Origin: Actinospica robiniae DSM 44927
Lineage (GTDB): Bacteria; Actinomycetota; Actinomycetes; Streptomycetales; Catenulisporaceae
DNA: 64,000 bases
Direction: 5' to 3'
NCBI RefSeq assembly: GCF_000504285.1
Contig: NZ_KI632511.1
Coordinates: forward strand, 2,043,372 to 2,107,371
The notes under the pieces are model-generated. The model did not search any database. It saw nothing but the letters and a program-made list of their open reading frames with translations, and was not told the origin of the DNA. The position numbers and the translations under genes are program-made. Positions 30,724 to 36,263 of this stretch are shown here, piece after piece; the first letter of the stretch is position 1; every line of letters starts with the position of its first letter.

Positions 30724-32124
<1,401 letters not shown>

Positions 32125-32217
32125 AGCTCGACTTTACGGACGAGGCCACCGCCAGGAGATCAAGACCCGGCCCGCCTGCTCCAACCGGGTGGGACTCACG
32201 CGTGGAGATCCGCGCCA

Positions 32218-32236
32218 TCACCTGCCAGACTGGTGA
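32218..32236. promoter_or_regulatory. Candidate CGNR-regulator operator at its own start codon
   Basis: TCACCTGCCAGACTGGTGA has TCACC/GGTGA arms and sits one base before the GTG start codon at 32238. It matches 33801-33819 at 16 of 19 positions. A protein bound here would block initiation of the regulator gene, so autoregulation is likely. Confidence 0.6.
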
Positions 32237-32237
32237 C

Positions 32238-32786
32238 GTGAACCCGGCTCATGTCTTCATCTGCGGAAACCTGGCCCTGGACTTCGCCGCCACCCTCCGG
32301 GGACGTCGTTCGACCCGGTCCGAGACGCTCGCGACCCCGGCCCGGCTCGACGCCTGGTACTTGGAGTCCACGCTCGTGGACGCGCTCTACCCCAGCGGTC
32401 CGCCTGACCTAGTCCAGGCCAAGGCGGCGCGAGAAGCCATATACGAGCTGGTCACCGCCCGGTTGCGGAAGACGGACTACGACCCCGAGGCGCTCGAGGT
32501 CGTGAACCGGACGGTGCGCCGGCCCGCCGCCGTACCGCAGCTGACCGTGTCCGGCCGCCGCACCGAGGCGACGCCTGCCGAAGCTCTCTCCTCGCTCGCG
32601 CGCACGGCCGTCGAGCTTCTGAGCGGGCCGGACACGGCCCTGCTCAAGGAATGCGACAACCCCGAGTGCACCACCGTGTACCTGGACCGATCCCGCGGGG
32701 GCCGGCGGCAGTGGTGCAGCATGGATCCCTGCGGAAACAAGATCAAGGCCGCGGCGTACCGCGCACGCAAGAAGGCCCGGGATTAG
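32238..32786 (+). CDS. CGNR zinc-finger/ABATE-domain transcriptional regulator
   Basis: A 182-aa protein. The N-terminal ABATE-like region begins VFICGNLALDF, and the C-terminal CGNR zinc finger has C139, C144, C160 and C165 with CGN at 165-167, followed by a basic helix (KIKAAAYRARKKARD) likely to contact DNA. Start GTG 32238 puts ICGNLALDF at the position usual for the family; a GTG at 32202 would read through the palindrome. The palindrome directly before the start is repeated at the msrA-side promoter, so it probably controls itself and that operon. Confidence 0.85.
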   Translation: MNPAHVFICGNLALDFAATLRGRRSTRSETLATPARLDAWYLESTLVDALYPSGPPDLVQAKAAREAIYELVTARLRKTDYDPEALEVVNRTVRRPAAVPQLTVSGRRTEATPAEALSSLARTAVELLSGPDTALLKECDNPECTTVYLDRSRGGRRQWCSMDPCGNKIKAAAYRARKKARD

Positions 32787-32820
32787 CACCCGGCGTCCGC
32801 CAGGACGATCGTGCAACGCA

Positions 32821-32865
32821 GCCCACCCGCACCGTCGTCCGCTGAGCGCGTCGATGCGGGTGGGC
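32821..32865. terminator. Hairpin between convergent CGNR regulator and msrA
   Basis: A perfect 11-bp stem (GCCCACCCGCA at 32821-32831 with its complement at 32855-32865) around a 23-base loop, midway between two genes ending at 32786 and 32886. It probably acts as a bidirectional terminator; there is no T-run on either side. Confidence 0.6.
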
Positions 32866-32885
32866 GTGGTGATCCGAGCGGAGCC

Positions 32886-33395
32886 TCAGCCGGCGGTCGC
32901 CCGGCGCGGCAGCTTCCAGTTCGGCCGCGGGTAGTGGCAGGTGTAGCCGGCGGGGTAGCGCTCCAGGTAGTCCTGGTGCTCCGGCTCGGCCTCCCAGAAG
33001 TCGCCCGCCTTCGTCACCTCGGTGACGACCTTGCCGGGCCACAGGCCGGAGGCCTCCACGTCCGCGATGGTGTCCTCGGCGACGCGCTTCTGCTCGTCGT
33101 CCAGGTAGAAGATCGCGGAACGGTAGCTGGAGCCGACGTCGCCGCCCTGGCGGTCCTTGGTGGTGGGGTCGTGGATCTGGAAGAAGAACTCCAGCAGCGC
33201 GCGGTAGTCCGTCTGCTCCGGGTCCCAGACGATCTCGACGGCCTCGGCGTGGTTGCCGTGCCGGCGATAGGTCGCGTTCGGCGTGTCACCGCCGGAGTAG
33301 CCGACCCTGGTGGAGACGACGCCGGGCTGGCGGCGGATGAGGTCCTGCATGCCCCAGAAACAGCCCCCGGCGAGAATCGCCTTCTCGGTAGCCAT
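32886..33395 (-). CDS. msrA: Peptide methionine (S)-S-oxide reductase MsrA
   Basis: A 169-aa MsrA. The catalytic motif is GGCFWG with nucleophile C12, followed by GYSGG and [12 protein letters not shown], with a C-terminal Cys in [10 protein letters not shown] as a possible resolving residue. It reduces methionine-S-sulfoxide in proteins and free methionine. It lies 80 bases downstream of the 66-aa gene on the same strand and probably shares the promoter at 33783-33811, placing it under the CGNR-type operator. MsrB is encoded separately at 50614. Confidence 0.95.
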
Positions 33396-33475
33396 TTTCT
33401 TAAGCCCTCCTCGGAGAGTTGGAAGAGATCAGGGTCCGGCTTGTTCCGGCTCGAACTGCGCCCTGGAACGGCCGG

Positions 33476-33676
33476 TCAGAAGGCCAGGTCCAGCGCGACA
33501 CACGAGTGGAAAAGCCACGCGCGCTCGGCGTTGTACTCGTCGCCGGCCCGGCTCCTCGAGCCGACCGGGTGCTCCTCGACCAGAGCCGAGAACGGGACCG
33601 GCTCGGGCAGTGTGCCGAACCGTTCCCGACGCGCCTGCGCGGCGGTGTCCACGGTGAAGGTGTCATCAGCTGCCAT
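33476..33676 (-). CDS. Small protein (66 aa) upstream of msrA
   Basis: Start ATG 33676 is set by a strong ribosome-binding site, GGAGGAGAACC. Upstream in-frame codons extend to 33904 but run through the promoter and operator, so the long version is rejected. The product is a short soluble protein with two parts: an acidic TFTVDTAAQARRERFG start and an AERAWLFHSCVALDLAF tail that ends in a hydrophobic patch with one Cys. I recognise no family. As first gene after the operator it may be the main target of the CGNR regulator and may act in oxidative stress with MsrA. Confidence 0.7.
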   Translation of the reverse strand: MAADDTFTVDTAAQARRERFGTLPEPVPFSALVEEHPVGSRSRAGDEYNAERAWLFHSCVALDLAF

Positions 33677-33782
33677 GGTTCTCCTCCATTCCTCGGAGTG
33701 CATCACGCTGCAGGTCACAGGGGGGTCGTCCGGCCCTGTAGTCCCCTGCCCCGCGTCCCCCCGTCCCACCCCCGGGTCGCTT

Positions 33783-33811
33783 ACTATGGCAGGACCTCCG
33801 TCACCTGTCAA
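33783..33811 (-). promoter_or_regulatory. Promoter of the 66-aa/msrA operon
   Basis: On the minus strand TTGACA (complement of 33806-33811) is followed after exactly 17 bases by CATAGT (complement of 33783-33788). This is a good vegetative-type promoter with a predicted start near 33776 and a leader of about 100 bases. The -35 box lies inside the palindrome at 33800-33820. Confidence 0.65.
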
Positions 33812-33820
33812 ACCGGTGAC
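33800..33820. promoter_or_regulatory. Candidate CGNR-regulator operator over -35 box
   Basis: A palindrome with GTCACC/GGTGAC arms and core TCACCTGTCAAACCGGTGA (33801-33819), covering the -35 box of the msrA-side promoter. Binding would block RNA polymerase, so repression is expected. It matches the site at 32218-32236 at 16 of 19 positions. Confidence 0.65.
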
Positions 33821-33930
33821 GCGACTATTCCTTCGGCCACCCAAGCCATGAGGAGAGCTCAGCGAGACCGCCTCCCGGCGGGAGCCGCCACGCCACCCCT
33901 CCACTATTTCGAAAGTCTAATATCAAGCCA

Positions 33931-34689
33931 ATGTTTAACAAGGCGCCCGGGGCCCGGCCCCACTCTCTGTTCTCCTTCGGCACACTGCTGGAGGAGAACG
34001 TGCAAGTCACGCTTTTCGGTCACGCGGTACCCGGCGCCGAGGCATCTCTCGCCGGCTACGCGACCAGGCCGCTGGTCATCACCGACGCGGCCGTCATCGC
34101 GACCAGCGGCAGCCAGGTCCATCTGACGCTCAAGCGCGAACTCGGCAGCGTCGTCACGGGCGGCGTGCTTCGCCTCAGCGATGAAGAGCTTGCCGCTGCC
34201 GACGCCTACGAGGTCGACGACTACGCCCGCCGCCGCGTGCTGCTTTCCTCCGGGGAGAGCGCCTGGGCCTACCTCGACGCGGAGCCGCTGCGTTCGGCAT
34301 CGCGTGTCCTGATCGCCGGCGGCGGCGAGTACGGACGACTGGCGGCGGAGCGCATCACCAAAGACGAGGCCCACCATCGGCTTTTCAACGCGGCCGTCCC
34401 CGGCAATACCCTGACCGAGATCACAGCGCAGATCCCTGAGTTGCTGCCGCGCCACCGTCCTGACACAGTCGTCTTCGCAGCGGGAATCGACGGCAACGAC
34501 GACTGGCCTGCAACGATCGCGGCGGATCTCGCCAGACTCGCCGAGATCGTGCTGCGAGGCAACGGCCGCCTCGTCATCGCCGGACCCACGGCGGTGGACG
34601 ACGAGCGCATCGCCGAGACACAGGTCCCGGCCCTGCGAGACGCGCTGAGTACCTGGTGTATCGAGAACCACGTGGATTACCTGGCCTGA
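33931..34689 (+). CDS. Gamma-glutamylcyclotransferase-like/SGNH-like fusion protein
   Basis: A 252-aa protein with two parts. Residues about 11-118 resemble the AIG2/GGCT fold: FSFGTLLE in place of the YGTL loop, and E94 in DAYEVDDY at the position of the catalytic glutamate. Residues about 120-252 look like an SGNH-type alpha/beta domain with NAAVPGNTL (block II) and FAAGIDGND (block III). However, the expected GDS serine loop reads IAGGGEYG, and the protein ends before a clear D-x-x-H. The second half is therefore probably non-catalytic or modified. Start ATG 33931 lacks an obvious ribosome-binding site. Its role is unknown. Confidence 0.7.
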   Translation: MFNKAPGARPHSLFSFGTLLEENVQVTLFGHAVPGAEASLAGYATRPLVITDAAVIATSGSQVHLTLKRELGSVVTGGVLRLSDEELAAADAYEVDDYARRRVLLSSGESAWAYLDAEPLRSASRVLIAGGGEYGRLAAERITKDEAHHRLFNAAVPGNTLTEITAQIPELLPRHRPDTVVFAAGIDGNDDWPATIAADLARLAEIVLRGNGRLVIAGPTAVDDERIAETQVPALRDALSTWCIENHVDYLA

Positions 34690-34704
34690 GCGGCCCGGAC
34701 ACGC

Positions 34705-35652
34705 TCATCCGAAGGTGAAGGCGTAGGCCTCGGCACCAGGCTCGGGAAAGATGATCTCCACGGTCCGCTCACTGATTTTGCCGTCCTGGCGGATGAGTTG
34801 GTAGAGCCGGCCGCCTGCCAGCAGTCCGTTGCCGTCCTCGTCGACGTCCACGCCGTGGGAGCCGGCCGGAGGTTCTCCGTCCAGGAGCACCTGGAACGGG
34901 ATCGGTTCGGCGCCTGTCCGATTGAGGACGAGGTTCACGTCGCGCGCGTGGAAGCGGAAAGCGAGGACGCTGTCTGGCCCGTACGGCATGACGCACTCGC
35001 TCCCGACAGTCCAATCGCCCGACAACGCCCAACTGTTGCCCGGCCGGTGCTTGGGCAGCTCGTACGTCTGCCTCCGATCGAAGGCGACGTCACCGGGTGA
35101 GGCGGACTGGCCACCGCGCGCGTAGCCGAGGTAGGTCTCGGGCGTCTTGAGGTTGCGCCGGTCCGCATCCGCCTCGATGCCGAGTGCTTTGACGGGTGCT
35201 GGGGCGGCGCTCACACCCAGGAGACTCTGGAGCGTCTGCTCCGACTCCTCATAACTTCCTTCGCCGAAGTGCTCGTCGCGGATGACGCCGTTCCGGTCGA
35301 TGAAGTACAGCGCGGGCCAGTAGCTGTTGGCGAACGCATCCCACACCGCATAGTCGTTGTCGACGGCGATCGGGTAGTCGATGCCACGATCCGCGGCCGC
35401 CTGGCGCACCAGACCGGCGTCGTGCTCGAAGGAAAACTCCGGTGTGTGCACCGCCACCACGACCAGGCCGGCGGCGCGGTATGCCTGTGCCCAGGCGCGC
35501 ACATGCGGCTGGGTGCGCAGCCAGTTGATGCACGTCAGCGTCCAGAAATTCACGAGTACCACATTGCCCCGCAGGTCAGCAGGGTCGAGAGGCTCGGAGT
35601 TAAGCCACTGAGTCGCCCCGTCGAGGCGTGGCATGTGCACGTCGCGGGTCAC
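34705..35652 (-). CDS. Thioredoxin-like (DipZ C-terminal type) protein
   Basis: A 315-aa protein with an N-terminal TlpA/thioredoxin fold (LVNFWTLTCINWLRTQPHV, then VVVAVHTPEFSFE and WPALYFIDRNG) and a C-terminal beta-rich domain of about 140 residues (from ETYLGYARG), as in the soluble part of DipZ. The CxxC position reads C-I-N-W, so only one active-site cysteine remains. A classical disulfide exchange is unlikely, and a peroxidase or mixed-disulfide role is possible. No signal peptide or transmembrane helix is seen. GTG 35652 overlaps the stop of the PRC-barrel gene (35649-35652), so the two are coupled. Confidence 0.85.
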   Translation of the reverse strand: MTRDVHMPRLDGATQWLNSEPLDPADLRGNVVLVNFWTLTCINWLRTQPHVRAWAQAYRAAGLVVVAVHTPEFSFEHDAGLVRQAAADRGIDYPIAVDNDYAVWDAFANSYWPALYFIDRNGVIRDEHFGEGSYEESEQTLQSLLGVSAAPAPVKALGIEADADRRNLKTPETYLGYARGGQSASPGDVAFDRRQTYELPKHRPGNSWALSGDWTVGSECVMPYGPDSVLAFRFHARDVNLVLNRTGAEPIPFQVLLDGEPPAGSHGVDVDEDGNGLLAGGRLYQLIRQDGKISERTVEIIFPEPGAEAYAFTFG

Positions 35653-36263
35653 GAGATTTTCCCTTCGTGGCCCTCCCCGGGTGTGTCCGCCAGTTCGCGC
35701 ACGAGGTCTTTGGTCAGGTCGAGTCGGATCCCGTCGCCGAATCTCGTCACGGATCTGGCCGACACGGCGATCCGGGCGCGGTGCCAGAAGTGGCCCGTGC
35801 CGAGCAGGAGGTCGGTCAGCCGCTGGCCGCCTTCGAGATCGACGGCGATCCCCTGCAGACGCCCGACCGCGCCATCGATGGCGTAGATGACCTCGCCTCG
35901 ATGAAGCGCGACGCCTCCCCCGGGAATCCGGTCGCGGGTCGAGGTCAGGTTCCCGTACCCCGTGTCCTGCTCGATGCCTTCTACGCCAGGTCTGCGCAGG
36001 TCGTGTGGCATAGACCCCTCCGCGATCTCCTGGGTGGTCTCGAATTGCCCGAGCTCGGCCGTCGTACAGCGAAGCATGATGTCCTCGCCCACCGAAGCCA
36101 CCTGGTCCGCGGGCACGAGCCGGCCGGGCGCCAGATCGGACGCCGTGACGGCCAGGTAGGTGACCCTGCGGGTGGCAGGGTCCACGACGAGCCAACGAAG
36201 GCGTCCGAAGAATCCGTCGGTGCAGGCCACGTCGGTACCGATGATCAGCTGTGTCTCACCCAT
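35649..36263 (-). CDS. PRC-barrel domain protein
   Basis: A 204-aa protein with a PRC-barrel at residues about 5-70 (LIIGTDVACTDGFFGRLRWLVVDP, then VTYLAVT) and a second, less clear barrel at about 118-190. PRC-barrels occur in RNA-processing and photosynthetic proteins and in many uncharacterised stress proteins. Start ATG 36263. It lies 46 bases after the FUSC gene and overlaps the thioredoxin-like gene, so the three may be one operon. Confidence 0.82.
   Translation of the reverse strand: MGETQLIIGTDVACTDGFFGRLRWLVVDPATRRVTYLAVTASDLAPGRLVPADQVASVGEDIMLRCTTAELGQFETTQEIAEGSMPHDLRRPGVEGIEQDTGYGNLTSTRDRIPGGGVALHRGEVIYAIDGAVGRLQGIAVDLEGGQRLTDLLLGTGHFWHRARIAVSARSVTRFGDGIRLDLTKDLVRELADTPGEGHEGKIS

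Follow-up and report, generated by a model that had tools for sequence, protein, structure and literature searches.

A conserved 19-bp palindrome beside an ABATE/zf-CGNR regulator gene in Actinospica robiniae and its relatives points to a probable autoregulated damage-repair regulon

The window, a stretch of 64,000 nucleotides from Actinospica robiniae DSM 44927 taken here at its full length, carries the gene of an ABATE/zf-CGNR regulator (CGNR) and, on the opposite strand, msrA and the gene of a 66-residue protein (p66), together with two 19-bp palindromes named O1 and O2 (Table 1). The CGNR protein exceeded the Pfam cut-offs for both the ABATE domain (89.4 bits; cut-off 24.4) and the zinc finger (69.1 bits; cut-off 24), whose motif reads CGNK in the window; these were the only domains matched at E up to 0.001, a MarR domain being absent. 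The first-pass annotation had placed O1 in contact with the CGNR start codon. The longer open reading frame, of 194 aa, starts at 32202; since protein conservation begins at GTG 32238, O1 adjoins the start but ends one base before it, and does not lie within the reading frame. Membership of the neighboring reductase in the MsrA family was clear (167.6 bits against TIGR00401; cut-off 108.1), and its gene follows p66 on the same strand after a gap of 80 bp, lacking a palindrome of its own, with no terminator-like match between the two genes. In the divergent direction, O2 is also located upstream of a plus-strand gene (33931-34689) for a 252-aa protein with a gamma-glutamylcyclotransferase-like domain (over the cut-off) and a GDSL-like region (below it), for which tblastn found no relative in the seven named CGNR loci described below. 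Farther on, the minus-strand stretch 34705-36263 encodes a thioredoxin-fold protein (Redoxin/AhpC-like and Thioredoxin_10) and a second protein, whose PRC-barrel match is below the cut-off, and scanning with the window pattern gave no operator-like site there.

Table 1. Features of the CGNR locus, in positions of the window.
Feature	Positions	Strand	Basis or remark
Putative operator O1, TCACCTGCCAGACTGGTGA	32218..32236	+	ends 1 nt 5' of the CGNR start codon
Putative -10 box CAGACT inside O1	32226..32231	+	comparison of -10 hexamers and their spacing among loci
ABATE/zf-CGNR regulator, 182 aa from GTG 32238	32238..32786	+	PF07336 3.9e-25, PF11706 2.7e-19
msrA, peptide-methionine (S)-S-oxide reductase, 169 aa	32886..33395	-	PF01625 7.2e-57; TIGR00401
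p66, 66 aa, first gene behind O2	33476..33676	-	conserved family
Predicted p66-msrA promoter TTGACA-N17-CATAGT	33783..33811	-	sigma-70-like, 10/12 matches
Putative operator O2, TCACCTGTCAAACCGGTGA	33801..33819	-	spans TTGACA, the -35 box of the p66-msrA promoter

The two palindromes are identical at 16 of 19 positions, with three differences, which confirms both the coordinates and the match count first reported for them. Their arms form five perfect pairs (TCACC/GGTGA) and a G-C pair at positions 7/13 around an asymmetric center. When the window was scanned with a degenerate pattern at up to three mismatches, O1 and O2 were recovered as exact matches along with one match of three mismatches; three matches stand against 0.09 expected, none of 100 shuffles reached this number, and the agreement between O1 and O2 is beyond chance. 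Throughout the 9.92 Mb genome the pattern TCACCTGNNANACNGGTGA was found exactly at two places only, which are O1 and O2. Seventeen further rows with one or two mismatches, one of them being the reverse strand of O2, were taken as chance, the backward control having produced nine. Moreover, the TTGACA box with a 17-bp spacer and CATAGT, which the first-pass annotation had described under O2, was the sole sigma-70-like match in 32000-34800 (shuffle mean 0.1).

Conservation was followed in two samples. A scan of named genomes provided seven relatives (Streptomyces, Actinacidiphila, Embleya, and one record named Streptosporangium), with best segments 64-72% identical, and a profile search across the order (391 genomes, eight candidates scored per genome) identified a CGNR ortholog in 88 at E<=1e-50. 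A set of 107 loci was assembled from 99 profile matches (up to 7 kb on each side), the seven named loci, and the window, in which some species may appear twice; a close CGNR ortholog was absent from both other genomes of the window's genus. All seven named relatives present a TCACC-type palindrome just 5' of the CGNR start, with at most four mismatches to the window pattern. Indeed, the conservation in orthologous loci on which the first-pass annotation had staked its proposal was found, as the palindrome is kept at the CGNR start in 101 of the 107 loci (at least 14/19 matches to TCACCTGTCAGAATGGTGA). The six exceptions comprise L124, where p66 overlaps the CGNR start; L150, with a palindrome matching 13/19; L168, with two sites further upstream; L044 and L145, where the site is present and the start is misplaced because the genes match only in part; and L172, a partial match. 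In L124 (L124:6744-7001), p66 runs into the start codon of CGNR, which has no site at its start, and this overlap makes p66 and CGNR probably one unit. Among 76 close orthologs, the arm columns of the site carry 1.76-2 bits, against 0.06-0.71 in the columns 17-45 nt upstream, so close kinship by itself does not explain the conservation of the site; conservation also extends to the coding columns that follow.

The CGNR-start site contains a -10-like hexamer, most commonly CAAGAT, CAGAAT, CAGGAT, or CAAAAT, and in 93 of the 101 loci a TTG lies 17 or 18 nt upstream of this hexamer, O1 of the window being among the eight sites without this upstream TTG. Furthermore, a 14-bit site occurs 15-30 nt before the extrapolated start in 76 loci, at a distance of exactly 20 nt in 74 of them, as counted from the first T of the site to the CGNR start codon. 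The TTG, the -10 hexamer, and the fixed spacing are arranged as in a leaderless promoter whose -10 box falls inside the operator, and the CGNR promoter is probably leaderless, judging from the sequence. In this context, the putative operator is conserved within the predicted promoter of CGNR itself, where the CGNR protein would bind. That the conserved block is nothing else than a leaderless promoter and start region, without any operator, is highly improbable: the -10, the -35, and the start codon are conserved along with the block, as such a reading would predict, yet the palindrome also precedes p66 and enzyme genes, and both of its arms are conserved.

A symmetric weight matrix built solely from 61 distinct CGNR-start sites was used to look for targets. 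At 14 bits or more, it detected 315 sites in the 107 loci (CGNR-start sites included) against none in reversed sequences, and O2 is a 29.7-bit match to it. With the threshold lowered to 12 bits, 47 of 56 p66 genes had a site within the 300 nt that precede the p66 match, mostly 60-210 nt upstream from its beginning, compared with 79 of 3697 random regions drawn from these loci. Gene calls in the loci came from a simple codon model and were then clustered, and a gene was counted as a target when a site lay within 250 nt upstream. Only genes preceded by at least 250 nt of DNA were considered, a site shared by two divergent genes was credited to both, and three labels, Tat-type (judged from the N-terminus), ABC-F, and ALDH-like, were assigned by eye. 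An upstream site was present for 99/105 CGNR genes, a count that is high by construction as the matrix was made from these sites, and for 40/48 p66 genes, 29/34 alpha/beta hydrolase genes, 16/19 MsrP/SorA-like molybdoenzyme genes, and 11/13 Ohr genes. An unnamed 142-aa family was preceded by a site in 7/7 cases, partly by the same sites as CGNR because it adjoins the CGNR gene in five loci. Lower proportions were seen for genes of Bax-inhibitor-like (4/7), VOC (5/11), and tannase (7/16) proteins, and for MsrA near CGNR (5/8). When CGNR and p66 are set aside, 122 of 1195 genes had an upstream site, no site preceded any gene in at least 40 other clusters with four genes or more, and ABC-F, with a site in just 1/53, was rejected as a target. 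The Ohr protein scored 145 bits (TIGR03561 cut-off, 88.85), the hydrolase was over Pfam cut-offs, and the molybdoenzyme was over its Pfam cut-off and reached none of the NCBIfam cut-offs for MsrP or SorA. Among the functions of the targets are the repair of oxidized methionine (MsrA, perhaps MsrP-like) and of organic peroxides (Ohr).

The first-pass annotation had predicted an autoregulated repressor of a methionine-sulfoxide repair operon. The site at the CGNR start in 101/107 loci and the recurrence of MsrA support this prediction, which nevertheless proved too narrow, as p66, the hydrolase, the MsrP/SorA-like enzyme, and Ohr are preceded by a site more often than MsrA. From its upstream sequences, MsrA is a recurrent predicted target: to the five local genes with their own site are added L147, where MsrA follows a site-preceded Ohr gene much as it follows p66 in the window, and two genes (L269 and L273) recovered by the pattern search described below. 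The commonest partner of the switch is, in our best reading, p66 rather than msrA. It is in fact conceivable that p66 alone is controlled in the window and that the adjoining msrA is incidental, given that O2 precedes p66, that msrA lacks its own site, and that L039, the sole one of the seven named loci with msrA, has this gene near CGNR without a second site. We consider this unlikely, in view of the sites in front of other MsrA genes, of the common strand and missing terminator-like match in the window, and of the arrangements elsewhere, since p66 is followed by a same-strand MsrA in 2 of 49 cases and by Ohr in another 2 of 49.

Homologues of p66 are found in 56 of the 107 CGNR loci, window included, and nine of these 56 have no upstream site. 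Among the named loci, four of seven hold a p66 homologue, with the palindrome just upstream in L038, L042, and L043 and none in L041. On the genome level (15 candidates scored per genome), p66 was detected in 126 of 391 genomes, 81 with a CGNR ortholog and 45 without; the strong matches (E below 1e-23) are in 57 genomes, of which 55 have the ortholog, and 7 of the 88 ortholog genomes show no p66. The protein had no Pfam and no NCBIfam match, and its structure model is weak (mean pLDDT 64.6). Two forms of the C-terminus were noted, ...PEGSWxxxSCLALDLGL and ...NPDEWLVRTCL / WWLIRMGGI, after a common N-terminal part, and the C-terminal Cys is near-invariant in the main form. The commonest neighbors of 49 p66 genes were the hydrolase, CGNR, an aldehyde-dehydrogenase-like protein (labeled by eye), MsrA, Ohr, and ABC-F. 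A peptide (RiPP) precursor is one idea for p66; no RiPP tailoring enzyme was recognized among these recurrent neighbors.

Outside the CGNR loci, exact occurrences of TCACCNGYCARNNNGGTGA were sampled at ten places of genome G331 and in ten stretches of five other genomes (G290, G200, G111, G047, and G113), situated either about 9 kb to several Mb away from the CGNR gene or on a different contig. In the five genomes, such sites precede genes for p66, MsrA (L269, L273), the hydrolase and a second hydrolase, as well as MsrP-like, Ohr, and Bax-inhibitor-like proteins; some others have no called gene, fall within a gene, or precede an unrelated one. G331 contains 17 exact sites, at least six of the ten sampled being inside predicted genes; as none of these ten precedes a regulon family, a large regulon in this genome was rejected. 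G050 carries 13 exact copies of the operator pattern. Among the 88 genomes with a CGNR ortholog, 87 contain the exact pattern (312 sites), as do 117 of the 303 without (181 sites); the means are 3.5 and 0.6 sites per genome, respectively, and two or more sites are present in 77/88 versus 26/303 genomes. The backward control gave 11 matches across all 391 genomes, fewer than the 117 ortholog-less genomes with a site. Of the 26 ortholog-less genomes with two or more sites, 24 hold a more distant CGNR relative (E<=1e-22), and the two such relatives inspected (L250, L252) have a site at their start.

Beyond this branch, 15 diverged CGNR relatives from the same family of genomes (32-41% identity) were compared by their best matrix matches. 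GGAACC..GGTTCC palindromes are placed near the start in eight, a GAACCG-type palindrome in two, GTGAGT..ACTCAC-type palindromes in L033 and L035, the TCACC site in L023, and variants in L031 and L037. In L026-L030, L032, L034, and L036, the GGAACC..GGTTCC palindrome near the start is repeated, less perfectly, at a distance of 28 bp. Changed palindromes are expected if the linked protein reads the site, in a comparison that is small (n=15) and uncontrolled. Strong palindromes near the start of 74 other CGNR genes (five own-genome paralogs and 69 from a class-wide search) were not enriched, at 12/74 against 32/247 controls, and the operator is therefore claimed for this branch only. Placing the starts by regular expression, an unreliable procedure in which 21 of 89 loci were dropped for lack of a zinc-finger match and 23 more for lack of a start motif, likewise gave no palindrome enrichment among other CGNR genes.

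These data bear on whether a different regulator binds the palindrome, with the CGNR gene as merely one of its targets. Such a regulator could account for the sites in 117 of 303 genomes without a close ortholog and for the intragenic sites of G331, and binding by CGNR is itself something that we infer. It is nonetheless improbable, given that the CGNR gene is the constant neighbor of the site (in gene calls whose sites also made the matrix), that site number tracks the presence of the ortholog, that CGNR and p66 are the only gene clusters shared by more than 35 of the 107 loci, which were themselves chosen by CGNR, and that the palindromes have changed in diverged relatives. The predicted binder would act as a dimer, for which the palindromic form of the site is indirect support; the single-chain structure model of CGNR is of low confidence (mean pLDDT 55.1). 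The four zinc-finger cysteines are present in 102/102 aligned CGNR proteins, and Cys9 is invariant in 76/76 close orthologs and kept in 14 of 26 more distant members, which makes Cys9 and the zinc-finger cysteines candidate sensor residues.

Taken as a whole, we favor, with a probability of about 0.75, the reading that CGNR is an autoregulated repressor of a conserved oxidant/electrophile damage-repair regulon, acting on its own and on the p66-msrA promoters. The ABATE/zinc-finger protein would bind the 19-bp TCACC-N9-GGTGA palindrome as a dimer, repressing its own, probably leaderless, promoter through a site that holds the -10 box and the p66-msrA promoter through O2, which covers the -35 box. 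The circuit of the window would then be a local copy of a regulon comprising MsrA, Ohr, the MsrP/SorA-like enzyme, the alpha/beta hydrolase, VOC and Bax-inhibitor-like proteins, and p66, and an oxidant or a reactive electrophile may release CGNR, perhaps via Cys9 or the zinc-binding cysteines. The sense of regulation is unreadable from sequence, and neighboring sites, which are 39-42 bp apart, or about four helical turns, in 43 of 62 pairs within 120 bp, could serve either sense. An activator or dual regulator on these sites is distinctly unlikely even so, because activators rarely cover -10 or -35 boxes, and the sites cover the -10 box of CGNR or, in the window, the -35 box of p66.

The two matching palindromes hence mark an apparent conserved control circuit in Streptomyces and relatives, and the repressor reading yields a testable operator, a target list leading to methionine-sulfoxide and hydroperoxide repair, and a candidate sensing cysteine. 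It also brings into view a small protein of an uncharacterized family, p66, which follows the CGNR regulator across genomes. CGNR zinc fingers are common in the class (66 of 98 genomes sampled), and the proposal of an operator and regulon concerns a little-studied family. More tentatively, and at slightly less than even odds, the ABATE/zf-CGNR proteins of this branch may represent a new class of thiol/zinc sensors of oxidants or electrophiles, working as autoregulated repressors on the TCACC-N9-GGTGA operator via leaderless promoters, with p66 as a new small stress protein and core output.

Among known systems, OhrR-type proteins of the MarR family are autoregulated organic-hydroperoxide repressors with ohr among their targets and a reactive cysteine. 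The proposed CGNR circuit resembles them in autoregulated repression, the ohr target, and a reactive cysteine as candidate sensor, and differs in the ABATE/zf-CGNR family, the TCACC-N9-GGTGA operator, and the wider targets. HypT, RclR, and YedV/YedW-type systems respond to HOCl or to the oxidation of methionine; CGNR would have in common with them that a dedicated oxidant-responsive regulator governs methionine-sulfoxide repair, while the regulator families differ. RsrA of Streptomyces is an anti-sigma factor with a zinc-cysteine redox switch, and CGNR, as a predicted DNA binder, may share with it the use of a zinc-cysteine site as a redox switch in an actinomycete. The first-pass annotation knew of no established operator for CGNR proteins, and our literature search, beyond whose reach most subscription journals lie, agrees with it, having retrieved no operator, regulon, or signal for any CGNR protein. 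The ABATE/CGNR prototype, Jann_2411 (PDB 3h0n), was described as dimeric, with a proposed role in stress-induced transcription regulation (PMC2954205), and the main text of that paper makes no mention of an operator or palindrome. A PDB sequence search aligned its zinc finger with the window protein (E 4.4e-8), and the two-domain ABATE/CGNR family is common to both, to which the operator, the autoregulated promoter, and the target set are proposed here as additions. An autoregulated stress repressor is familiar as a kind, and what is new is the protein family, the operator, the promoter layout, and p66.
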